From Klenkia sp. (lineage in GTDB: Bacteria > Actinomycetota > Actinomycetes > Mycobacteriales > Geodermatophilaceae): DNA of 12,575 nt. Below, piece after piece: positions 1,459-11,336 of this stretch (position 1 is its first letter; each line of letters begins with the position of its first letter). The stretch covers positions 1 to 12,575 of the forward strand of contig JAOPVM010000425.1 of NCBI GenBank assembly GCA_025966215.1, in the 5' to 3' direction. Made by a program: the position numbers and the translations under genes. A model generated the notes under the pieces. That model saw only the letters and a program-made list of their open reading frames with translations. It did no database searches and was not told where the DNA came from.

Positions 1459-1878
1459 TCAGTCCTCGGCCACCACGCGACCGATCTCGTTGTCGGTGCA
1501 GTCCAGGCGGACCCGTCGTCCGTCGAGGGCCTGGGCGATCTCGGTGAAGTGCGACGGGTCAGTGGCGCCCACGACGTAGCGCGAGTCGCTGCCGGTCAGG
1601 TGAGCGGTCATCACGCAGGGGGTCTGGAACTCCCGGGAGAGGATCCCCAGGTGGGACTCCGGGGCGCCGGACATCGTGATGACGCCGATGGCGCCCATGC
1701 TCAGGGCCGGCGCGAGGAACGTCGTCGTCCCGCCCTGCACGAGCAGGATCGAGTTCTTGAGCTCCCCGGACTGGATGAGGTTGATGACGTCAGCAGGGGC
1801 GTTCAGGTACTTCACCGTGCCGCTGGGGGACTTCTTGGTGTCGAAGACGTTGTAGCCCTCGGCCAGTACGTCGGCCAT
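1459..1878 (-). CDS. Stand-alone PEP-utilising enzyme mobile (phosphohistidine swivelling) domain protein
   Basis: This encodes 139 aa. The ATG at 1878 follows a perfect AGGAGG (complement of 1884-1889), which decides the start. The protein is essentially one swivelling domain of the PEP synthase/pyruvate phosphate dikinase type. It has a beta/alpha segment GGTTTFLAPALSMGAIGVI at about 49-67, then APESHLGILSREFQTPCV at 72-89, in which His76 matches the phosphorylated His of the family motif (T-S-H-x-x-x-x-x-R-E). In known enzymes this domain carries phosphate between an ATP-binding domain and a PEP/pyruvate-type domain, but here neither is attached. Split versions exist, for example phenylphosphate synthase. 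The gene leads the minus-strand operon with the unrecognised gene downstream; a separate ATP-grasp subunit might lie beyond the left edge. The domain call is firm. The substrate that accepts the phosphate is unknown. Confidence 0.87.
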   Translation of the reverse strand: MADVLAEGYNVFDTKKSPSGTVKYLNAPADVINLIQSGELKNSILLVQGGTTTFLAPALSMGAIGVITMSGAPESHLGILSREFQTPCVMTAHLTGSDSRYVVGATDPSHFTEIAQALDGRRVRLDCTDNEIGRVVAED

Positions 1879-3990: not shown

Positions 3991-4362
3991 CAGAGAACGT
4001 GCAGGTCAGAGGCGGGTCGCCCCACGGGGGCCGGCCCGCCTCCTGCCGTTGTGTACCAACGCGGGTAGCGACGGGGCCGAAGCGAGCCTGTTCGTATCGG
4101 CTCACGACAGGTGCAGCCTGGTCTGCGCGGGCGTCCTCCGGGCCCGAACGGCAGTTGGACCCGTACCTTCGGGCAGCTCCTGGGCCGCATGGAGGGTGAT
4201 GCCCGACCAACCCCAGCTGAGTACACCCATCGGCCAGGGCAGCGGCCCTGGTCCGGCTCACGCCTGGTGCGGACCGTCATCGGCGGCGGGGCTGGACCAG
4301 TCGACGGCACGGTCCAGGTGATCGGCCGCTTCGCGACTCTGCTCAGGGGTCAGTGGCAGTAG
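3991..4362. other. Non-coding stretch between tRNA fragment and antitoxin
   Basis: No frame here resembles a protein. An open frame running antisense across the tRNA fragment is an artefact. Apart from the hairpin at 4009-4042, I see only an AGGGG at about 4345, which may serve the antitoxin start at 4363 although it lies far upstream. The stretch probably holds the decayed end of an integrated element. Confidence 0.45.
4009..4042 (+). terminator. Hairpin downstream of the tRNA-Pro fragment
   Basis: GAGGCGGG (4009-4016) pairs with CCCGCCTC (4035-4042), and the loop contains a second possible CCCC/GGGG pairing. It starts 19 bases after the tRNA 3' end, where a tRNA terminator is expected, and was probably carried along with the duplicated tRNA end. 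It has no T tract, as is common in actinobacteria. Confidence 0.5.
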
Positions 4363-4578
4363 ATGTCCGCTGTGCTGGGTCGCGCGATGTACGGCGGAGA
4401 GCGCATCGGGGTGACCCGCAACGGCACGTTGGCCGCTGTGGTGGTCGGGGTCGCCGACCTGGAAGACCTGGACGCGCTGGAGATGGCCCAGGACGTGGCG
4501 GCGTACCGGGCGGCGAAGTCCGAGGACGACGGGGAGCGGGTGTCGCTGGCGGAGGTGCGTGACGAGCTCGCCGGGTGA
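4363..4578 (+). CDS. Phd/YefM-type antitoxin, N-terminally shortened
   Basis: This 71-aa protein resembles the DNA-binding antitoxins that neutralise RelE-type toxins. The signature is GGERIGVTRNGTLAAVVVGVADLEDLDALE at about residues 11-40 (the beta-hairpin and helix of the Phd fold), followed by an acidic toxin-binding tail (VAAYRAAKSEDD...EVRDELAG). Family members usually have about 12-18 more residues before the GGERI motif. Here a TAG lies directly before the ATG, so the first strand and helix appear to be lost, which may weaken DNA binding. The ribosome binding site is poor. Its stop overlaps the toxin GTG as GTGA, the normal layout of such operons. The partner toxin is frameshifted, so the pair is probably decaying. 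Confidence 0.7.
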   Translation: MSAVLGRAMYGGERIGVTRNGTLAAVVVGVADLEDLDALEMAQDVAAYRAAKSEDDGERVSLAEVRDELAG

Positions 4579-4834
4579 GCTACTCGGTTGAGTTCACCGC
4601 GGCGGCCGCCCGCCAGCTACGCAAGCTCGATCGACCAGTGCGCGTGCGGCTCATTGCTGCCATCGGCGACGTGGCTGATGAGCCGCGGCCGTCGGGTGCG
4701 ACGAAGCTGGTGGGGGAGCAGACCGCCGGGCGAATCCGGGTGGGGACTACCGCGTCCTCTACGACGTCCTCGACGAGTTGCTGGTCGTGACCGTCGTCCG
4801 CGCCGGACACCGCCGGGAGGTCTACGACCGCTAG
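4575..4834 (+). pseudogene. RelE-type mRNA interferase toxin, broken by a one-base frameshift
   Basis: The frame from GTG 4575 begins as a clear RelE/ParE-superfamily toxin (MSYSVEFTAAAARQLRKLDR) and stays typical to GRIRV at about residue 56. It then derails into a Thr/Ser-rich tail. The +1 frame continues the family exactly (DYRVLYDVLDELLVVTVVRA, then GHRREVYDR) and stops at TAG 4832-4834. Adding one G in the GGGG run at 4742-4745 gives RVGDYRVLYD and a complete 86-aa protein, the normal length. Loss of one G is therefore the simplest explanation. The lost part contains the C-terminal Arg, His and Tyr residues used by RelE enzymes to cleave ribosome-bound mRNA, so the product should be inactive. 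A sequencing error in the G run is the alternative. Confidence 0.85.
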
Positions 4835-5377
4835 GCGCTCACCCCCCGCAGTGGGCCGAGGACAGCAACCGGTACAGCAACGCGGTGCGGACGAGCCCGC
4901 ATGACGACGGACGGCCTCGGACGCCGAACCTGCTCGCCGGCCGCAGGGTGCTGGGACCCCCACTCCGGGGCCTCGCCCGCCGCACCGGCGTGAGCCACGG
5001 CGCACCACGGAGCCCTCGGTTCAGATGGCCCCTCGTGAGGGCGTGCGCACCGGCCTGCTCCGTCCACCAGCATCGGCACGTTCCTCGACTGCGCGGAACA
5101 CGACCTGCGGACGCTCGTGGACGACTCGGCCGTGTACACCTGGGACGGAAGCACCTGTCGCCGGTGATGCTGGCGGGACCTCTCCTCCGCCCGAGCCCGT
5201 CCTTCTCCACCGAAGTGCGAAGGTGCGGTCCCTGAGCAGGCTGCGCGCGCTACGCCGCGACCGAAGCCGTCACCGTCATCGACTCACCGACCTGATCGGC
5301 GCACCCCGGTCGGTGGGGAAGCAGGTGGTCGGGGCGGTCTGTCGACCGGTCACCCGCTGGTCCGCTCCGCGAGCGGG
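4835..5377. other. Gene-poor stretch after the toxin, carrying the right direct repeat
   Basis: I find no gene with supported family features. The right direct repeat occupies 4855-4930. A possible coding fossil lies at about 5070-5168, where one plus frame reads IGTFLDCAEHDLRTLVDDSA and then VYTWDGSTCRR before a TGA. It looks more protein-like than its shadows, but I cannot name it and it has no start or ribosome binding site. The remainder leads into the thiolase promoter. Together with the gap left of the tRNA fragment, this supports a scar of integration and loss. Confidence 0.45.
4855..4930 (+). repeat. Right copy of imperfect 76-bp direct repeat
   Basis: Same orientation as 3817-3892, 1,038 bases away. 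The internal 12-base tandem is kept with one change (GACAGCAACCGG, then TACAGCAACGCG). It starts 20 bases after the toxin stop. The two copies bracket the tRNA fragment and the toxin-antitoxin remnant. Confidence 0.7.
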
Positions 5378-5425
5378 CGTCGCGAACTGCGACACCGGGT
5401 GAGGCCACGGCCCGGGAGCATCGAC
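5378..5425 (+). promoter_or_regulatory. TetR-type operator and promoter of the thiolase operon
   Basis: Read on the minus strand, 5394-5378 is TGTCGCAGTTCGCGACG, matching 15 of 17 bases of the operator beside tetR. On the plus strand, GCGACAC ends at 5395. After exactly 19 bases comes GGAGCATCGAC (5415-5425), a degenerate form of the CCTAGCGTCGG element at the two sister promoters. The thiolase start is 30 bases further on. The coincidence of motif, orientation and spacing is strong evidence for shared control; whether the protein represses or activates is not visible. Confidence 0.65.
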
Positions 5426-5454
5426 GTGCTGTCCACCCACCGCTGGGAGATCCC

Positions 5455-6633
5455 GTGAACTCCGCCGTCATCGTCGATGCCGTCCGCACCCCCTCCGGCC
5501 GGGGCAAGCCCGGTGGCGCCTTGTCGGAGGTCCACCCGGCCGACCTGCTCGCCCAGACCCTGCACGCCCTCCTCGAGCGGACCGGGATCGACCCGGCCAC
5601 CGTCGACGACGTGATCGCCGGCTGTGTGTCGCAGGTCGGGGACCAGACCCTCAACATCGCCCGGACCGCGCTCCTCGTCGCGGGGATGCCCGAGTCCGTG
5701 CCCGGCACCACGGTCGACCGGCAGTGCGGGTCGAGTCAGCAGGCCGCCCACTTCGCCGCCCAGGGAGTGATGGCCGGCGCCTACGACGTCGTCATCGCCT
5801 GCGGCGTCGAGTCGATGAGCCGCGTCCCCATGGGCGCCAGCTCCCACGGGGGCCACCCGACCCGACCGCTGGAGCGGCGCTACCCCGACGGCCTCGTGAA
5901 CCAGGGCGTGTCCGCCGAGCTGATCGCCGACAAGTGGGGCCTGTCCCGCCAGGTCCTCGACGAGTACGCCGCCCGGTCCCACCGACTGGCCGCCGAGGCA
6001 GCCGCCTCCGGCGCGCTGGAGAGCCAGGTCGTGCCGGTGACGCTGGCCGACGGCAGCCGGCACACGACGGACCAGACCGTCCGGCCCGCCACCACGGCCG
6101 AGACACTCGCCGGGCTGCGGGCCTCGTTCCGCACCGACGAGCTCGCCGAGCGCTTCCCCCAGCTGGAGTGGCGGATCACGCCCGGCAACTCCTCGCCGCT
6201 CACCGACGGGGCGTCGGCGGCGCTGATCATGAGCGAGGAGCGGGCTTCAGCGCTGGGCCTGCGACCACGCGCCCGGTTCACCAGCTTCGCCGTCGCCGGC
6301 AGCGACCCGCTGTTCATGCTCACCGGCGTCATCCCGGCCACGCAGAAGCTGCTCGAACGGTCGGGGATCACCATCGGCGACATCGACGCCTACGAGGTGA
6401 ACGAGGCCTTCGCCCCCGTCCCGCTCGCCTGGGCGGCAGAGTTCGGTGCCGACCCCGAGCGGCTGAACCCGGCCGGCGGCGCCATCGCCCTGGGCCACGC
6501 CCTCGGGGCCTCGGGCACCCGCCTGCTCACCAGCCTGCTCCACCACCTGGAGGCCACCGGCGGGCGCTACGGGTTGCAGACCATGTGCGAGGGCGGCGGC
6601 CTGGCCAATGCGACCCTGATCGAGCGGCTGTGA
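5455..6633 (+). CDS. Thiolase (acetyl-CoA acyltransferase)
   Basis: This 392-aa enzyme catalyses the last step of beta-oxidation, CoA-dependent cleavage of a 3-oxoacyl-CoA. The GTG start follows GGGAGA at 5445-5450. The full catalytic set is present: the nucleophile Cys91 in DRQCGSSQQA, His348 in GGAIALGHALGASG and Cys378 in CEGGG, with EVNEAFA near 319-325. Length is standard. The DRQCGSSQQA form, rather than the common N-C-x-S-G version, resembles the FadA5/FadA6 thiolases of actinobacterial steroid and branched-chain catabolism, so a bulky or ring-derived substrate is plausible, but that is inference. The stop overlaps the next start as GTGA, so the two genes are translated together. The promoter carries the TetR-type operator found also at the SDR and hydratase genes, which ties this operon to theirs. 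Confidence 0.93.
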   Translation: MNSAVIVDAVRTPSGRGKPGGALSEVHPADLLAQTLHALLERTGIDPATVDDVIAGCVSQVGDQTLNIARTALLVAGMPESVPGTTVDRQCGSSQQAAHFAAQGVMAGAYDVVIACGVESMSRVPMGASSHGGHPTRPLERRYPDGLVNQGVSAELIADKWGLSRQVLDEYAARSHRLAAEAAASGALESQVVPVTLADGSRHTTDQTVRPATTAETLAGLRASFRTDELAERFPQLEWRITPGNSSPLTDGASAALIMSEERASALGLRPRARFTSFAVAGSDPLFMLTGVIPATQKLLERSGITIGDIDAYEVNEAFAPVPLAWAAEFGADPERLNPAGGAIALGHALGASGTRLLTSLLHHLEATGGRYGLQTMCEGGGLANATLIERL

Positions 6634-7391
6634 CCGCGCCGAGGGCCGAGGCGAACCTGCGCTTCGACTTCACCGGTCAGACGGTCCTGGTGACCGGGGG
6701 CGCGCAGGGCATCGGCCGCGGCATCGCGGCGCTCTTCCACGACGCCGGCGCGCACGTGGCGGTCCTGGACCGCGACGCCGACCTCCTCGCCCGGTCCTGG
6801 GGCGAGGCCGGCGACCGGGTCACCACCCACGCCGTGGACGTCGCCGACGCCGACGCGGTCGCCGCCGCCGTCGAGGCCGTGGTGGCCTGGTCGGGGTCGG
6901 TCGACGTCGCGGTCAACAACGCCGGGATCACCCGGGACACGGTCGTGTGGAAGATGTCCCCGGCCGACTGGCAGGCCGTCCTCGACGTCCACCTCGGCGG
7001 GACCTTCGCCGTCACCCGGGCCGTCGTCCCGCACATGCGTGCGGCCGGCCGCGGGCGGGTCGTCAACGTGACCAGCTACACCGGGATGCACGGCAACATC
7101 GGGCAGGCCAACTACGCCGCGGCCAAGGGCGGGATCATCGCGTTCACCAAGACGGTGGCCAAGGAGGTCGCCCGGTTCGGCATCACGGTCAACGCGATCT
7201 CCCCCAACGCCGCCACCGCCATGGTCGCGGCGGTACCGGCCGACAAGCTCGCGGAGATGACGGCGTCGGTGCCCCTGGGCCGGTTCGCCGAGCCCGAGGA
7301 GATGGCCGCCGCGGTGGCGTTCCTGGCCAGTGCCGAGGCCGGCTACGTCACCGGTGTCGTGCTGCCCGTGGACGGCGGCATCTCGATGTGA
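6630..7391 (+). CDS. SDR-family 3-hydroxyacyl-CoA dehydrogenase/FabG-like reductase
   Basis: This 253-aa Rossmann oxidoreductase has the NAD(P) motif TGGAQGIG at 22-29, NNAG at 96-99, and catalytic Ser149, Tyr162 (NYAAAKGG) and Lys166. Asp47 at the end of the second strand suggests NAD(H) rather than NADP(H). The active-site Asn normally found in the LDVNL motif is replaced by His121 (LDVHLGG). The same change, with GNxGQANYxAAK and ISPNA, occurs in the 3-hydroxyacyl-CoA dehydrogenase domain of peroxisomal multifunctional enzyme type 2. I therefore favour oxidation of 3-hydroxyacyl-CoA over fatty-acid synthesis. The GTG start overlaps the thiolase stop by four bases, which would make the product feed straight into the thiolase. 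It is the last gene of its operon, followed by a strong hairpin. Confidence 0.88.
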   Translation: MTAPRAEANLRFDFTGQTVLVTGGAQGIGRGIAALFHDAGAHVAVLDRDADLLARSWGEAGDRVTTHAVDVADADAVAAAVEAVVAWSGSVDVAVNNAGITRDTVVWKMSPADWQAVLDVHLGGTFAVTRAVVPHMRAAGRGRVVNVTSYTGMHGNIGQANYAAAKGGIIAFTKTVAKEVARFGITVNAISPNAATAMVAAVPADKLAEMTASVPLGRFAEPEEMAAAVAFLASAEAGYVTGVVLPVDGGISM

Positions 7392-7401
7392 CCACGGCGT
7401 C

Positions 7402-7436
7402 ACGAGAGCCCCGGGGGCGGTCCCCGGGGCTCTCGT
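7402..7436. terminator. Perfect 15-bp hairpin between convergent genes
   Basis: ACGAGAGCCCCGGGG (7402-7416) pairs perfectly with CCCCGGGGCTCTCGT (7422-7436) around a five-base loop GCGGT. It starts 11 bases after the SDR stop at 7391 and ends 15 bases before the stop of the convergent gene at 7452, so it can terminate both. It has no T tract on either strand. Confidence 0.85.
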
Positions 7437-7451
7437 CGTGCTGGGGTGGGA

Positions 7452-8291
7452 CTACTTGACCAGGTTGCCGGCGTCGACCGGGAGGGCGATCCCGGTGATC
7501 AACCGGGCGTCGTCCGAGGCCAGGAAGACGGCGGCAGCAGCGATGTCCTGCGGCTCGGCGTAGGGCTCGGGGAGCACGTGCATGCCTGCGGAGACCGCGG
7601 CGAAGTCGTCCTCGGTCGGGTTCTCGAGGTCGGGGCGGAAGAGCTTGTACGTGGCGTCGTTCATCAGCATCGCGGTGCGCACCTGCGTCGGGTGCAGGCT
7701 GTTCACCCGGATCCGGTGCTGACCCAGTTCGTTGGCCAGCACCCGGGCCAGGCCCACCACCCCGTGCTTGGCCGCGGTGTACGCACCCAGTCCGGGGTAG
7801 GTCTTCATCGACGACAGCGAGCTGGTCAGGATGATCGAGCCGCCGCGACCGCCCTCGATGAGGTGTGGGACCACCGCCTTGCAGGTGCGCCACACCCCGC
7901 TGAGGTTGATGGCGATCATGTTGTCCCAGTCGTCGTCGCTGATCAGGTGCAGCGGGACGCTGTTGGCGGCGATCCCGGCGTTGGCCACGACGATGTCCAG
8001 CCGACCCAGCTGGGCGACGCCGTCGGCCACCGCGGCGGCCAGGGCCGCGCCGTCCCGCACGTCGACCTGGGCGGTGACGACGCGGCGGTCCAGCGACTCG
8101 ACCTCGGCGGCGGTCTCGGCCAGTTCCTCGGCGCTGCCCAGCCGGTAGCCCAGGCCCAGCTCGGGTGCGTCCTGGGCGATGTCGACGGCGATGATCTCGG
8201 CGCCCTCCCGCGCCATGGCGACGGCGTGTGCCCGGCCCTGCCCGCGTGCTGCACCGGTGATGAAGGCGACCTTGCCCTCGAGACGGCCCAT
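7452..8291 (-). CDS. Mycofactocin-type SDR family alcohol dehydrogenase
   Basis: This 279-aa protein starts at an ATG (8291) behind AGGAG/AGGA sequences. Motifs are TGAARGQGR at 12-20 (cofactor), Asp37, NAG at 104-106, Asn129, Ser158, Tyr171 (AYTAAKHG) and Lys175. It carries the hallmark insertion after the second strand, LGLGYRLGSAEELAETAAEV at about 45-64, which distinguishes mycofactocin-associated SDRs from ordinary ones. Those enzymes keep their NAD bound and pass electrons to the peptide-derived redox cofactor mycofactocin. They usually oxidise secondary or primary alcohols during growth on terpenols, steroids or simple alcohols. The mycofactocin biosynthesis genes are not in the window. 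The gene is divergent from tetR across a 141-base gap and its promoter carries the best copy of the operator. Substrate is unknown. Confidence 0.9.
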   Translation of the reverse strand: MGRLEGKVAFITGAARGQGRAHAVAMAREGAEIIAVDIAQDAPELGLGYRLGSAEELAETAAEVESLDRRVVTAQVDVRDGAALAAAVADGVAQLGRLDIVVANAGIAANSVPLHLISDDDWDNMIAINLSGVWRTCKAVVPHLIEGGRGGSIILTSSLSSMKTYPGLGAYTAAKHGVVGLARVLANELGQHRIRVNSLHPTQVRTAMLMNDATYKLFRPDLENPTEDDFAAVSAGMHVLPEPYAEPQDIAAAAVFLASDDARLITGIALPVDAGNLVK

Positions 8292-8349
8292 GTCCTGCTC
8301 CTGTCCACGGGGGCGGGCCGACGACGTGTTCACCGACCTCACCCGGCTG

Positions 8350-8397
8350 CCGACGCTAGGGAGTCCGCACCGCGCCCCCGTGTCGCAGATCGCGACA
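8350..8397 (-). promoter_or_regulatory. Best TetR-type operator, with promoter of the mycofactocin SDR
   Basis: TGTCGCAGATCGCGACA (8381-8397) is a perfect inverted repeat of 6-bp arms with a five-base centre. Reading away from it on the minus strand, GCGACAC ends at 8380, and 19 bases later comes CCTAGCGTCGG (8360-8350), whose TAGCGT fits a -10 box. That would leave about 60 bases of leader before the SDR start at 8291. There is no good -35 box 17 bases upstream of TAGCGT; that position abuts the palindrome, so either steric repression or activation is possible. The palindrome also lies just upstream of the presumed tetR promoter, allowing autoregulation. Confidence 0.7.
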
Positions 8398-8420
8398 GCG
8401 CGTGGTCCTGACGGCCCGGC

Positions 8421-8432
8421 TACGGTCGCCCC
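8421..8432 (+). promoter_or_regulatory. Probable -10 box of a leaderless tetR transcript
   Basis: TACGGT at 8421-8426 fits the TAnnnT consensus and ends six bases before the GTG at 8433. No ribosome binding site is visible. This arrangement is typical of leaderless actinobacterial genes, where transcription begins at or next to the start codon. The -35 position would fall at the right edge of the operator at 8381-8397. Confidence 0.45.
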
Positions 8433-9068
8433 GTGGTGCAGCCCGAGGACGCCTCCGGGCGCCGGGTGCGCCTGGACGCCGGGGACCGGCGCGAGTCCAT
8501 CCTGGTGGGGGCGCGACGGCTGTTCGCGGAGCGGCCGTACTCCGAGGTCTCCACCACCGACCTGGCCGAGGCCGCGGGCACCACGCGGACCAACCTGCAC
8601 TACTACTTCGGCACCAAGCGGGCCTTGTACCTCGAGGTCGTCCGGGAGTTCGGCCGGCTCCCCGAGCTGCCGGCCGACCAGGCCGGGCGGACCACCGGTG
8701 AGCGCGAGCTCCACCGGTTGATCGGGCGGTGGCTGGGCGTCCTCGCCGAGCACCCGCAGACCATCCTGACGCTGGTCGAGACGTGGTCGCCCGGTGCCGA
8801 CCCCGAGGTCGCCGAGGTCTTCCGCGAGGGGGCGCAGGCCTGGCAGGCCAGGCTCCTGGCGGTGCTGGAGATCCCCGACACCGGGCACACCCGGGCAGCC
8901 CTGCGGGCCTTCCAGGGCATGGCCGGCGTCGCCCTGGAGGAGTGGCTGCGGTTCGGCCGGCTCACCGGGCCCGAGGTGCAGCAGCTGCTGACCAGCACCC
9001 TGATGGCGATGGCGCCCGTGCTCCGTGGGGGTCCGGGCGGGACCGGAGCAGCCGGTCGCCGCGGGTGA
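8433..9068 (+). CDS. TetR/AcrR-family transcriptional regulator
   Basis: This 211-aa regulator has the N-terminal helix-turn-helix domain at about residues 20-66: RESILVGARRLFAERPYSEV, then TTDLAEAAGTTRTNLHYYFG with the usual Y-Y-F-x-x-K ending (Lys62). The alpha-helical C-terminal part, about 70-200, is the ligand and dimerisation domain and is too variable to name its effector; an acyl-CoA is the natural candidate in this setting. The last ten residues are Gly/Arg-rich and probably disordered. GTG 8433 was chosen over GTG 8436 because it sits six bases after a TACGGT -10 box. The gene is divergent from the mycofactocin SDR, with the best operator copy in between. Related sites precede the hydratase and thiolase operons, so it is probably the local regulator of all three. 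Confidence 0.9.
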   Translation: MVQPEDASGRRVRLDAGDRRESILVGARRLFAERPYSEVSTTDLAEAAGTTRTNLHYYFGTKRALYLEVVREFGRLPELPADQAGRTTGERELHRLIGRWLGVLAEHPQTILTLVETWSPGADPEVAEVFREGAQAWQARLLAVLEIPDTGHTRAALRAFQGMAGVALEEWLRFGRLTGPEVQQLLTSTLMAMAPVLRGGPGGTGAAGRRG

Positions 9069-9113
9069 CCCGGATTGCGACACCCGGACCGCCGGCACGG
9101 CTCCTAGCGTCGG
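9066..9113 (+). promoter_or_regulatory. TetR-type operator half-site and promoter of the hydratase operon
   Basis: TTGCGACAC at 9075-9083 is the conserved half of the operator. The other half is degenerate: read on the minus strand, the 17-base window 9082-9066 matches 12 of 17 bases of the site beside tetR. After exactly 19 bases follows CCTAGCGTCGG (9103-9113), identical over 11 bases to the promoter element of the mycofactocin SDR. The site begins inside the tetR stop codon, so it must work within a 92-base gap. Confidence 0.6.
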
Positions 9114-9160: not shown

Positions 9161-9937
9161 GTGAGCTCAACCGGTGACGTCACCTACGCCGTGGACGGCG
9201 CGGTCGCGCTGATCACCCTGGACCGCCCCGAGGCCCACAACGCCCTCACCGTGCCGATGATCGGTCGGCTGGCCGAGGCCACCGACGCGGCCCGACGGGA
9301 CCGCGACGTCCTGGCCGTCGTCGTCACCGGGGCGGGGGACCGGGCGTTCTGTGCCGGTGGGGACCTGGGGGAGCTCATCCCCCGGCTGACAGCAGGGGAG
9401 CTCGAGGTCCTCATCCCCGACCCCACCAAGCGCTTCTTCTCCGACCTGTTCACCCCCGTGGTGGCCGCCGTGAACGGCATCTGCGTCGCCGGGGGGTTGG
9501 AGCTGCTGCTCGGGACCGACCTGCGGATCGCCGCGGAGCACGCCGTCTTCGGGTTGCCCGAGGTCCGCTGGGGGCTCGTGCCCGGCGGCGGGACGCACGT
9601 GCGCCTGCCGCAGCAGGTCCCCTGGGCCTTCGCGATGCAGCTCCTGCTGACCGGGGACCACGTCACGGCCGCCCGGGCCCACGAGGTCGGGCTGGTCAAC
9701 GAGGTGCTCCCGGGGGACGCGGTGCTGCAGCGGGCTCTCGACGTGGCGCACGGCCTGGCCCGCAACGGCCCGTTGGCCGTGCGGACGGCCAAGGAGATCG
9801 CGGTCCGGGCGCTGGGCAACGAGCCGCGGTTCGCCCTGGAGACCGCCCTGAACAGACAGGTCCTCGCCTCCCAGGACGCCGTCGAAGGACCCCGGGCCTT
9901 CGTGGAGAAGCGCGACCCCCGATTCACCGGACGCTAG
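9161..9937 (+). CDS. Enoyl-CoA hydratase/isomerase family protein (crotonase fold)
   Basis: This 258-aa protein has the crotonase fold. AGGAGG at 9147-9152 is only two bases from the in-frame GTG at 9155 but eight from the GTG at 9161, so I take 9161. Visible features are LDRPEAHNAL at 20-29, the oxyanion-hole segment FCAGGDLGEL at 63-72, NGICVAGGLELLLGTDLRIA at 105-124, and FGLPEVRWGLVPGGGT from 130. Glu114 and Glu134 match the two catalytic glutamates of mitochondrial enoyl-CoA hydratase, so hydration of a 2-enoyl-CoA is the likeliest reaction. Some crotonases with both residues act on other thioesters. The gene is first in an operon with an acyl-CoA dehydrogenase (8-base gap), the enzyme that would supply its substrate, and its promoter carries the shared operator. 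Confidence 0.88.
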   Translation: MSSTGDVTYAVDGAVALITLDRPEAHNALTVPMIGRLAEATDAARRDRDVLAVVVTGAGDRAFCAGGDLGELIPRLTAGELEVLIPDPTKRFFSDLFTPVVAAVNGICVAGGLELLLGTDLRIAAEHAVFGLPEVRWGLVPGGGTHVRLPQQVPWAFAMQLLLTGDHVTAARAHEVGLVNEVLPGDAVLQRALDVAHGLARNGPLAVRTAKEIAVRALGNEPRFALETALNRQVLASQDAVEGPRAFVEKRDPRFTGR

Positions 9938-9945
9938 GAGCACCC

Positions 9946-11127
9946 ATGGCACTCGACATCTCCCCGACGGTGCACCCCGAGTCCGCGGACCTGGTGGCCT
10001 CGGTGTTCGACGCGGTCGACGGCGTCCTCGCGGCGTGCCCGCGGTCGCTGTACCTGCAGCGCTCACGGCAGAAGGAGCACGCGCCGGAGCTGTGGGACGC
10101 CATCGTGGCCGCCGACCTGCTCGCCATCGGCATCCCCGAGGAGCGGGGCGGCGCCGGGGGTGGGCTCACCGGGTGCGTCGCGGTGATGGAGTCGCTGTCC
10201 CGGGTGGGCATCCCCCCGCTGCAGTACTCGCTCACCACGTTCTCGCGGGAGGCCATCCTCCGGTACGGCACCGAACAGCAGATCACCGATCACGTGCTCA
10301 CCACGATGACCGGTGAGCGGCGGTTCTGCCTGGGCGTCACCGAGCCCGACGCCGGCACCAACTCCTTCGCCGCCCGGACGACGGCGACCCGGAGCTCGAG
10401 CGGCGGGTACCGGATCAGCGGCCAGAAGGTCTACATCTCCGCCGCAGACGAGTCCGACCACATCCTGCTGCTGGCCCGGACCGCCGGGCCCGGCGAGCCG
10501 GTGGGGCGCCGGCAGGGCTTCGGCGTCTTCGTCGTCGACCTGTCGCTGCCCGGGATCGAGCTGCGCCGCCTGGACGTGGAGTGGCACGCCCCCGAGTACC
10601 AGTTCGAGGTCTTCTTCGACGATGTCGAGGTGCCCGCCGAGGCGCTCATCGGTGAGGAGGGCCTGGGCTTCGACCACATGCTCAGCGTGCTGAACCAGGA
10701 ACGCGTCGTCGTCGCGGCGTGGGCGCTCGGGCTGGGGGAGTACGCCCTGCAGAAGGCCGTGGACTACGCCAAGACGCGCGCCCCCTTCGGCCGTCCCATC
10801 GGGTCCTTCCAGGGCGTGCAGCACCCGCTGGCGCTGGCCAAGGCCGAGATGGAGGCGGCTCGGCAGGTCATGTACTCGGCCGCGGCCGAGTACGACTCCG
10901 GCCGTGATGCCGGGGCCAAGGCCAACATGGCCAAGCTGCTGGGTGCCCGGGCCGCGCTGGCCGCCGTCGACGCGGCCATCCAGACCCACGGCGGTTCCGC
11001 CTTCGTCTACGAGACCGACGTGGTCACGCTCTGGCCGATGATCCGGGTGCTGCAGATCGCCCCGATCAACAACGAGAGCGTCCTGAACTACCTGGGTGAG
11101 CGGCTGCTGGGGCTGCCCCGCAGCTGA
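9946..11127 (+). CDS. Acyl-CoA dehydrogenase (FAD-dependent)
   Basis: This 393-aa flavoprotein introduces the 2,3 double bond into an acyl-CoA and passes electrons to ETF. The ATG follows GGAG, which overlaps the hydratase stop. The N-terminal helical domain is followed by the FAD/substrate segment CLGVTEPDAGTNSFAARTTA at about 127-146, the beta-barrel (YRISGQKVYISAADESDHIL) and the C-terminal helical domain with RAPFGRPIGSFQGVQH. The catalytic base is unusual. The position of MCAD Glu376 (QIYEGT) is Pro373 here (QIAPINNE), while Glu252 (LNQERVVVAA) falls at the position of MCAD Thr255, where isovaleryl-CoA and long-chain dehydrogenases keep their base. This suggests the alternative catalytic site and perhaps a branched substrate. 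It ends the operon; a monooxygenase remnant abuts its stop. Confidence 0.9.
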   Translation: MALDISPTVHPESADLVASVFDAVDGVLAACPRSLYLQRSRQKEHAPELWDAIVAADLLAIGIPEERGGAGGGLTGCVAVMESLSRVGIPPLQYSLTTFSREAILRYGTEQQITDHVLTTMTGERRFCLGVTEPDAGTNSFAARTTATRSSSGGYRISGQKVYISAADESDHILLLARTAGPGEPVGRRQGFGVFVVDLSLPGIELRRLDVEWHAPEYQFEVFFDDVEVPAEALIGEEGLGFDHMLSVLNQERVVVAAWALGLGEYALQKAVDYAKTRAPFGRPIGSFQGVQHPLALAKAEMEAARQVMYSAAAEYDSGRDAGAKANMAKLLGARAALAAVDAAIQTHGGSAFVYETDVVTLWPMIRVLQIAPINNESVLNYLGERLLGLPRS

Positions 11128-11336
11128 CCTCCGAGCGGGAGCGGGCCGAGCACGTCACCGCGGTGGCCGACACGATCCCCGCGGCCCGCGGCGCGGCGGT
11201 GAACACCTGGGTCGCCGGGGCGAACATCGAGGGCGAGGCGCAGGCCATCGACGTGTACCTCGGCGGCGCCAACGCCTACGTCGACATGTGCCGTGCCTGG
11301 GCGGAGAAGGACGACGAGGGCTTCGTCCTCCGCTGA
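11124..11336 (+). pseudogene. C-terminal remnant of a Baeyer-Villiger-type flavin monooxygenase
   Basis: Directly after the dehydrogenase stop, an open frame of about 70 codons with no usable start reads (L)TSEREERAEH-like text: SERERAEHVTAVADTI, then NTWVAGANIEGEAQAIDVYL, GGANAYVDMCRAWAEKDDEG and FVLR before TGA 11334-11336. This matches the end of the cyclohexanone/phenylacetone monooxygenase family, where W-x-x-GAN-I-P-GK precedes Y-x-GG-x-x-x-Y and a final YEGF. The roughly 450 or more residues with both FAD/NADPH motifs are absent. The usual GK after GANI is GE here and the usual aromatic before EGF is Asp, both consistent with drift. The simplest view is a deletion that fused the dehydrogenase end to the tail of a lost monooxygenase gene. 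Assignment is by recalled family pattern. Confidence 0.68.

Follow-up and report, generated by a model that had tools for sequence, protein, structure and literature searches.

TyrR and DhaR of E. coli and HupR of Rhodobacter capsulatus have been shown to be sigma-70 dependent, and VpsR is probably not sigma-54 dependent, according to an excerpt of PMC3162934. The same excerpt describes Actinobacteria as lacking a sigma-54 system, and look-alikes of sigma-54 activators as being annotated in species without sigma-54. The present analysis concerns a promoter module, a palindrome with a -10 box at a fixed distance, in a 12,575-bp contig (C156, hereafter “the window”) from the genome of a Klenkia sp. 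(G000; 2.92 Mb, 73% complete). In a preliminary description, the palindrome had been proposed to be the operator of a local regulon controlled by the TetR-family protein encoded beside it. The evidence used throughout is comparative, and is drawn from sequence, spacing, conservation and gene neighbourhood. It suggests that the module binder is probably not the TetR protein. Specifically, the palindrome is probably the operator of a sigma-54-independent, TyrR/DhaR-like activator that would act near -43 at sigma-70-type promoters, and the candidate is an HTH_8 (helix-turn-helix) protein encoded on contig C26 of the same genome.

The module and its spacing

In the window, TGCGACAC-N19-CCTAGCGTCGG occurs without change before the gene for a mycofactocin-dependent short-chain dehydrogenase/reductase (SDR; minus strand) and before the enoyl-CoA hydratase gene (plus strand). 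TGCGACACN19CCTAGCGTCGG has two copies, at 8350-8387 (-) and 9076-9113 (+), each with 0 mismatches, and no third window copy with up to 3 mismatches was found; shuffles predict 0.01. The downstream element is thus identical over 11 bases at two promoters, as first described, since CCTAGCGTCGG has 0 mismatches at both. The same operator and 19-base spacing had also been claimed for a third promoter, that of the thiolase gene, and here only the palindrome stood up. It has one arm mismatch, and a spacer of 19 gives a 0/11 match to CCTAGCGTCGG, with 6/11 for a spacer of 18. The full operator, TGTCGCAGATCGCGACA, lies at 8381-8397, and its 2-mismatch copy at 5378-5394 bears out the 15/17 match reported for the thiolase promoter (expected in the window, 0.08). 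Beside tetR, the 6-base arms TGTCGC and GCGACA pair perfectly and the five central bases do not, so “perfect palindrome” is right for the arms only. Similarly, the 12/17 likeness given for the hydratase operator applies to one strand, and on the plus strand it is 13/17. TGCGACA is found four times in the window, in the three operators and at 5633 (-) within the thiolase coding region; as had been noted, the ligase and phosphohistidine promoters (the latter of the gene with a phosphoenolpyruvate [PEP]-utilising mobile domain) lack the motif.

Is the spacing a general feature? It was examined in 19 loci picked by TetR homology alone, blind to the motif. These are 19 of 22 such loci; L056-L058, short partial matches from other phyla, were excluded, and two of the loci (L042 and L047) share one contig. 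A palindrome site was defined as a 17-mer with up to 2 mismatches to TGTCGCN5GCGACA, and a -10 box as TANNNT at an offset of 15 to 59 from the palindrome centre. Among 95 distinct oriented sites, the box stands at +31 in 20, and the other 44 offsets together account for 10. Eight of these 10 lie at +33 to +37, at the same eight offsets as the tetR-side boxes in the shared region. Chance as the origin of the module is ruled out by the shuffle expectations (0.01 and 0.08) and by this excess at +31. Hence, the proposal of a real regulon, with an operator at a fixed distance from a -10 box, holds.

A profile of 33 promoters (the TetR loci, the window, C26 and loci retrieved with the pattern, and thus not independent of it) reads TGTnGC, TTGCGACAaCC, little conservation from +12 to +26, and then CCTASSGT. 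The proximal half-site is better conserved than the distal one, the -10 box is conserved, and no -35 element is visible in the profile. If transcription starts about 7 bases past TAGCGT, the operator centre would lie near -43. A spacing this exact, with no -35 element in view, suggests direct contact with polymerase, i.e., activation. An activating role had been considered conceivable before, and the position of the site upstream of the -10 box fits it, although probably not with the TetR protein as the activator.

The half-site pattern was also used in searches. In 18 genomes with a TetR homolog it yielded 19 matches versus 10 for a backward control, and 18 of the 19 precede a gene similar to the acyl-CoA or SDR proteins of the window, L084 being the exception. 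In 60 relatives it yielded 7 matches versus 7 backward, with no matching distal arm at the four half-site hits outside G000 and G001 (G005, G038 and two in G055). In the Klenkia genome itself, TGCGACA-N22-TAGCGT with up to 2 mismatches has 24 matches versus 22 backward, such that only the top matches are meaningful; the fourth-ranked module hit is C395:1939, with 1 mismatch. The same genome has 12 palindromes with up to 1 mismatch, four of which are the C156 and C26 sites, and seven of the other eight lie in coding-like frames by a stop-to-stop test that overcalls coding. Two near-motif sites were seen, C247:8077-8093, which is not in a coding-like frame, and C395:1939-1973.

The module extends well beyond the window. 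On C26, a module with TAGCGT at 10566 (+) precedes a weakly thiolase-like open reading frame (ORF) that matches no Pfam family (a thiolase-domain model with cut-off 420 gives it 96.9 bits) and is followed by a thiolase-domain gene; a module with TAGCTT at 5263 (-) precedes a second mycofactocin SDR gene (4315-5154; TIGR03971, 392.7 bits, cut-off 300). Klenkia brasiliensis has a counterpart of the 10566 site at L195:4472. Hydratase orthologs in Pseudonocardia, Amycolatopsis, Nocardia, Lentzea and Klenkia have the upstream layout seen before the window hydratase, and the full module is kept before thiolase orthologs of Pseudonocardia and Nocardia. With Nocardioides and Rhodococcoides added to these five genera, the module targets are homologs of the hydratase, thiolase and mycofactocin SDR, acyl-CoA ligases, acyl-CoA dehydrogenases and SDRs. 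Because the module is also found on C26, in Klenkia brasiliensis and in several genera, the regulon is not local. Neighbouring genes encode mycofactocin SDRs, flavin reductases, beta-oxidation enzymes and, on C26, a P450. They hint that the substrate is an alcohol, a ketone or a terpenoid-like compound, with subsequent degradation of its acyl-CoA.

The protein that reads the palindrome

The candidate activator has about 600 amino acids in a GAF/degenerate AAA/HTH_8 arrangement, and the Klenkia copy lies at C26 13685-15466 (-), with 847 bits. Of the 19 TetR loci, 13 contain its gene, which immediately follows tetR in 10. All 13 activators share an identical HTH segment, LGIARSTLYRK. Pfam detects HTH_8 and AAA_lid_14 in 13/13, Sigma54_activat (PF00158) in 1/13 and Sigma54_activ_2 (PF14532) in 5/13. 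The Walker A lysine is an arginine in three, the Klenkia protein among them. No GAFTGA-like string was found in any of the 13, and the sigma-54 DNA-binding domain (PF04552) was found in none of 20 genomes (the Klenkia genome being 73% complete), with positives in 4 of 14 control genomes. In other words, HTH_8 and the AAA lid are kept and the sigma-54 contact is lost, as in the TyrR/DhaR type; neither mark of a sigma-54-dependent enhancer-binding protein, the GAFTGA loop or sigma-54 in the genome, is present. Since there is no GAFTGA string, no sigma-54 domain was found, and TyrR, DhaR and HupR provide a precedent (excerpt of PMC3162934), the C26 protein is filed here as a sigma-54-independent paralog of sigma-54 activators rather than a sigma-54 activator. 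An AlphaFold model of the activator resembles NtrX, ZraR, FleQ, DhaR (N-terminal part) and VpsR. No title on the operator or on the actinobacterial activator family was among the literature matches listed, subscription journals being mostly outside their coverage.

The activator family is rare. In an order-level panel of 348 genomes, a close activator (at least 690 bits) occurs in seven, including all four module genomes, and a distant copy (497 bits) in an eighth, G331; in a phylum-wide sample, 4 of 236 genomes have a member at E 1e-60 or better. The palindrome accompanies this HTH_8 regulator into genomes without a TetR ortholog (defined as >250 bits), which speaks against TetR as the binder. 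These genomes are G361, G177 and G222, plus G331, and a palindrome is present in each activator locus. L190, L191, L192 and L198 together span 67 kb and contain seven sites with 0 or 1 mismatch, where Markov shuffles predict about 0.6; in 29 loci lacking the activator, 122 kb in all, no such palindrome was found. Three of the seven sites (L190 11558, L191 8924 and L198 6036) lie within 0.3 kb upstream of the activator. G361 and G177 have only cousin TetRs (182-184 bits), elsewhere in the genome. In both, the activator gene is preceded at <0.3 kb by a 1-mismatch palindrome, and a 0-mismatch palindrome lies past its end, by 0.8 kb in G361 and 2.2 kb in G177. In G331 a palindrome stands 0.1 kb upstream of the homologous part of the activator, and G222 has two modules with GCTACA arms at +31 near the activator, one of them directly upstream of the gene. 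The local TetR regulon as originally stated is ruled out by the C26 sites together with the palindrome near the activator where TetR is missing.

Three palindromes in succession were observed upstream of the activator gene at L190 11300-11600 (G361) and L191 8900-9200 (G177). The last of them is TGTCTCGTTATGGGACA with TAACAT at +30, and autoregulation is possible.

Similar geometry is seen with some distant paralogs of the activator, which have other TGT...ACA palindromes with a -10 box at 30-33 bp. For example, L217 (Nocardioides) has two identical TGTTCACTTCCTGAACA operators, at 6634 and 7946, both with TAGCGT at +31; the one at 6634 immediately follows a distant paralog of the activator. 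L210 has TGTCCGAACTTGGGACA at +31, and the box is at +32 for L211 (TGTCCCAACTTGGGACA), L233 (TGTTCCGAAACGGAACA) and L241 (TGTTCAGAAATTGGACA). Over L190-L220 and L226-L244 (L193 omitted), 102 sites were counted; the box falls at +30 to +33 in 16 of them, and the remaining offsets from 15 to 59 hold 5. For L221-L225, wider regions around four of their activator genes, plus the contig of the fifth, were scanned in place of the loci as such. A common geometry across paralogs is supported but not uniform. It is quite possible, although we would stop short of calling it probable, that actinobacterial orphan sigma-54 activators have been rewired as class II activators of the housekeeping polymerase, each with its own TGT-N11-ACA palindrome (TGTCGC, TGTTCA, TGTCCC or TGTTCC arms) and a centre-to-minus-10 distance of about 31 bp (30-33).

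How might the module work? Binding, the dimer, activation, direct contact with RNA polymerase, the ligand and any role of TetR are what we infer from these comparisons. The two HTH_8 domains of a dimer would read TGT-N11-ACA (here TGTCGC-N5-GCGACA). The proximal half-site would then abut the -35 region, with the -10 box (TAGCGT/TACCGT) 31 bp from the centre. The bound protein would touch the housekeeping sigma factor or the alpha subunit and substitute for the missing -35 contact, as in class II activation. A catabolic signal at the sensor domain would switch on the mycofactocin-SDR, hydratase-dehydrogenase, thiolase and ligase genes.

Several observations weigh against a TyrR/DhaR-like activator at the palindrome. 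High-GC actinobacterial promoters often have no -35 element, which makes its absence weak evidence. GAF is detected by Pfam in just 4 of 13 activators, and the structural model is modest (predicted local distance difference test score [pLDDT] 69.8, 13 sequences). Among the seven sites in loci without a TetR ortholog, L192 8483 falls inside an ORF, L192 3402, an intergenic 1-mismatch site of the G222 locus, is 6 kb from the activator gene, L191 13155 is 2.2 kb away, and the L198 site, upstream of the homologous part, is within the longest possible reading frame. In G177 and G361, the activator is present without a strict module, and the boxes stand at +30 or +33. When the unchanged test was applied to 19 further distant loci (24 sites), one box was at +31, two at +32 and two elsewhere. 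Lastly, strict-module co-occurrence alone does not decide between TetR and the activator. The four strict-module genomes of the 348 include three with TetR (3 of the 4 TetR genomes; hypergeometric 2e-6) and four with the activator (4 of 7), and the comparison is not decisive because the G222 strict hit is inside an ORF and is discounted as probably due to chance.

The main competitor is the adjacent TetR protein, which could itself bind the palindrome and activate from -43. In 7 of 19 loci, and in the window, tetR is preceded by a palindrome with 0 or 1 mismatch, and all four TetR-ortholog genomes of the 348 have module sites (three strict, and G001 with a looser distal arm). The closest solved chains, by sequence as well as by fold, include FasR, an acyl-CoA-responsive TetR activator, which activates fas-acpS via three inverted repeats (excerpt of PMC7382501). 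The best remaining point for TetR binding, and a further one against the HTH_8 activator, is Pseudonocardia spinosispora (L040; G063), where a palindrome related to the operator stands before a tetR gene whose product is 59% identical, and there is no close activator (411 bits); yet no half-site module was found in that genome. TetR as the activator is nevertheless unlikely. Besides the palindromes near activator genes in genomes without the ortholog, the 300 bp upstream of 10 of the 19 TetR homologs contain no palindrome, and at 7 of the other 9 the site belongs to the module of the gene transcribed divergently, whose -10 is at +31. On the tetR side, the -10 is at a variable +33 to +37 in the homologs (+32 in the window). 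The cousin TetR subfamily (best 198 bits; L113-L138) has no palindrome with up to 1 mismatch.

The same objections to TetR binding apply to a TetR repressor that sits over the -35 region and is released by acyl-CoAs. Repression is the usual behaviour of TetR proteins, repressors, EthR for one, are among its closest solved relatives, and MftR is described in an excerpt of PMC8728441 as a TetR repressor with long-chain acyl-CoAs as effectors; yet steric repression needs no exact spacing and +31 dominates on the target side, and we consider this very improbable. Both regulators might instead use one site, with the HTH_8 activator serving the target side and TetR competing at the divergent region over the tetR-activator genes. 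tetR and the activator gene sit side by side in 10 of 19 loci, and the divergent site is oriented towards both, but nothing points directly to a second protein there and target promoters need none, leaving this arrangement improbable too. TetR may control the tetR-activator genes; no separate TetR operator was found in a search limited to palindromes. Finally, two conserved blocks at a fixed spacing could be the -35 and -10 of an alternative (extracytoplasmic function, ECF) sigma factor. Against this, the upper block forms a palindrome whose distal arm is conserved, the downstream one amounts to a plain TANNNT box, and a spacing of 22 between TGCGACA and TAGCGT is too long for a sigma factor. 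ECF sigma blocks are ruled out by spacing and palindromicity.

Annotated features of the window

The table lists the operators, candidate -10 boxes and regulon genes. The tetR genes seem leaderless by eye, with TANNNT, 6-8 bases and then the start codon, in the window (8421-8435) and in 8 more homologs.

Table. Coordinates of promoter elements and genes in the window.
Feature	Position	Strand	Remark
Operator 1, TGTCGC-AGATC-GCGACA, between tetR and mycofactocin-SDR gene	8381..8397	.	Sole 0-mismatch TGTCGCN5GCGACA in the (73% complete) Klenkia genome
-10 box TAGCGT, mycofactocin-SDR promoter	8353..8358	-	First base 31 bp from operator centre 8389; transcription start predicted
Operator 2, TGACCCGGATTGCGACA	9066..9082	+	Proximal half TGCGACA intact, distal half degenerate
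-10 box TAGCGT, hydratase promoter	9105..9110	+	31 bp from operator centre 9074
Operator 3, CGTCGCGAACTGCGACA, upstream of thiolase-FabG genes	5378..5394	+	Motif match
Weak candidate -10 GAGCAT, thiolase promoter	5416..5421	+	+30 from palindrome centre; putative
Candidate -10 TACGGT of tetR	8421..8426	+	Six bases before GTG; putative leaderless transcript
Mycofactocin-dependent SDR, regulon member	7452..8291	-	TIGR03971, 372.1 bits (cut-off 300)
TetR-family regulator, 211 aa, probably not module binder	8433..9068	+	PF00440 (TetR_N), 53.1 bits (cut-off 24)
Enoyl-CoA hydratase, regulon member	9161..9937	+	Profile match
Acyl-CoA dehydrogenase, putative operon with hydratase	9946..11127	+	Profile match
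Thiolase, probable regulon member	5455..6633	+	Profile match
FabG-like SDR, putative operon with thiolase	6630..7391	+	Profile match

After the acyl-CoA dehydrogenase gene, a short open stretch at 11126-11335 (+) reads ...NTWVAGANIEGEAQAIDVYLGGANAYVDMCRAWAEKDDEGFVLR, which may be the C-terminal remnant of a flavin monooxygenase. At about 4360-4840 (+) there is presumably an antitoxin-like gene followed by a RelE-like toxin gene with a broken frame. At the contig end, 3-1391 (-) encodes an open-ended protein of 463 aa without a Pfam or NCBIfam match, and its neighbour at 1459-1878 (-) codes for a small protein that carries a PEP-utilising mobile (phosphohistidine) domain.

Functional implications and comparison with known systems

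What would such a system mean? With its operator defined, its promoter geometry fixed and its target set conserved, it would make the function of sigma-54-activator look-alikes testable, and would tie these proteins to mycofactocin-dependent alcohol oxidation and beta-oxidation. If the wider generalization to actinobacterial paralogs is true, the promoter architecture would be a hallmark, and the regulons of uncharacterised proteins could be read straight from sequence. The locus also illustrates that a neighbouring TetR gene can prompt a wrong regulon assignment.

Among TetR proteins, FasR of M. tuberculosis shares with the window protein the TetR fold and a link to acyl-CoA metabolism, and shows that a TetR protein can activate. 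The window TetR scores 26.9 bits against the FasR model, below the NCBIfam equivalog cut-off of 330, and the targets differ. MftR is likewise a TetR protein in a mycofactocin context; here the score is 26.7 bits, below the NCBIfam equivalog cut-off of 224.9. The MftR operator, T-N2-GGCA-N5-TGCC-N2-A in an excerpt of PMC8728441, differs from TGTCGC-N5-GCGACA.

AcoR and the NtrC-type activators have the sensor-AAA-HTH_8 order and TGT...ACA palindromic sites seen here. The NifA site, for example, is TGT-N10-ACA. Unlike in these systems, no GAFTGA-like string (13/13) and no sigma-54 domain (20/20 genomes) was found, and the operator is next to the promoter rather than distant. TyrR, DhaR and HupR, and probably VpsR, have in common with the candidate activator an HTH/AAA+ architecture without a functional GAFTGA. 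The candidate differs from TyrR, DhaR and HupR in being actinobacterial, in its near-fixed distance to the -10 box, and in its putative regulon of mycofactocin-SDR and beta-oxidation genes.

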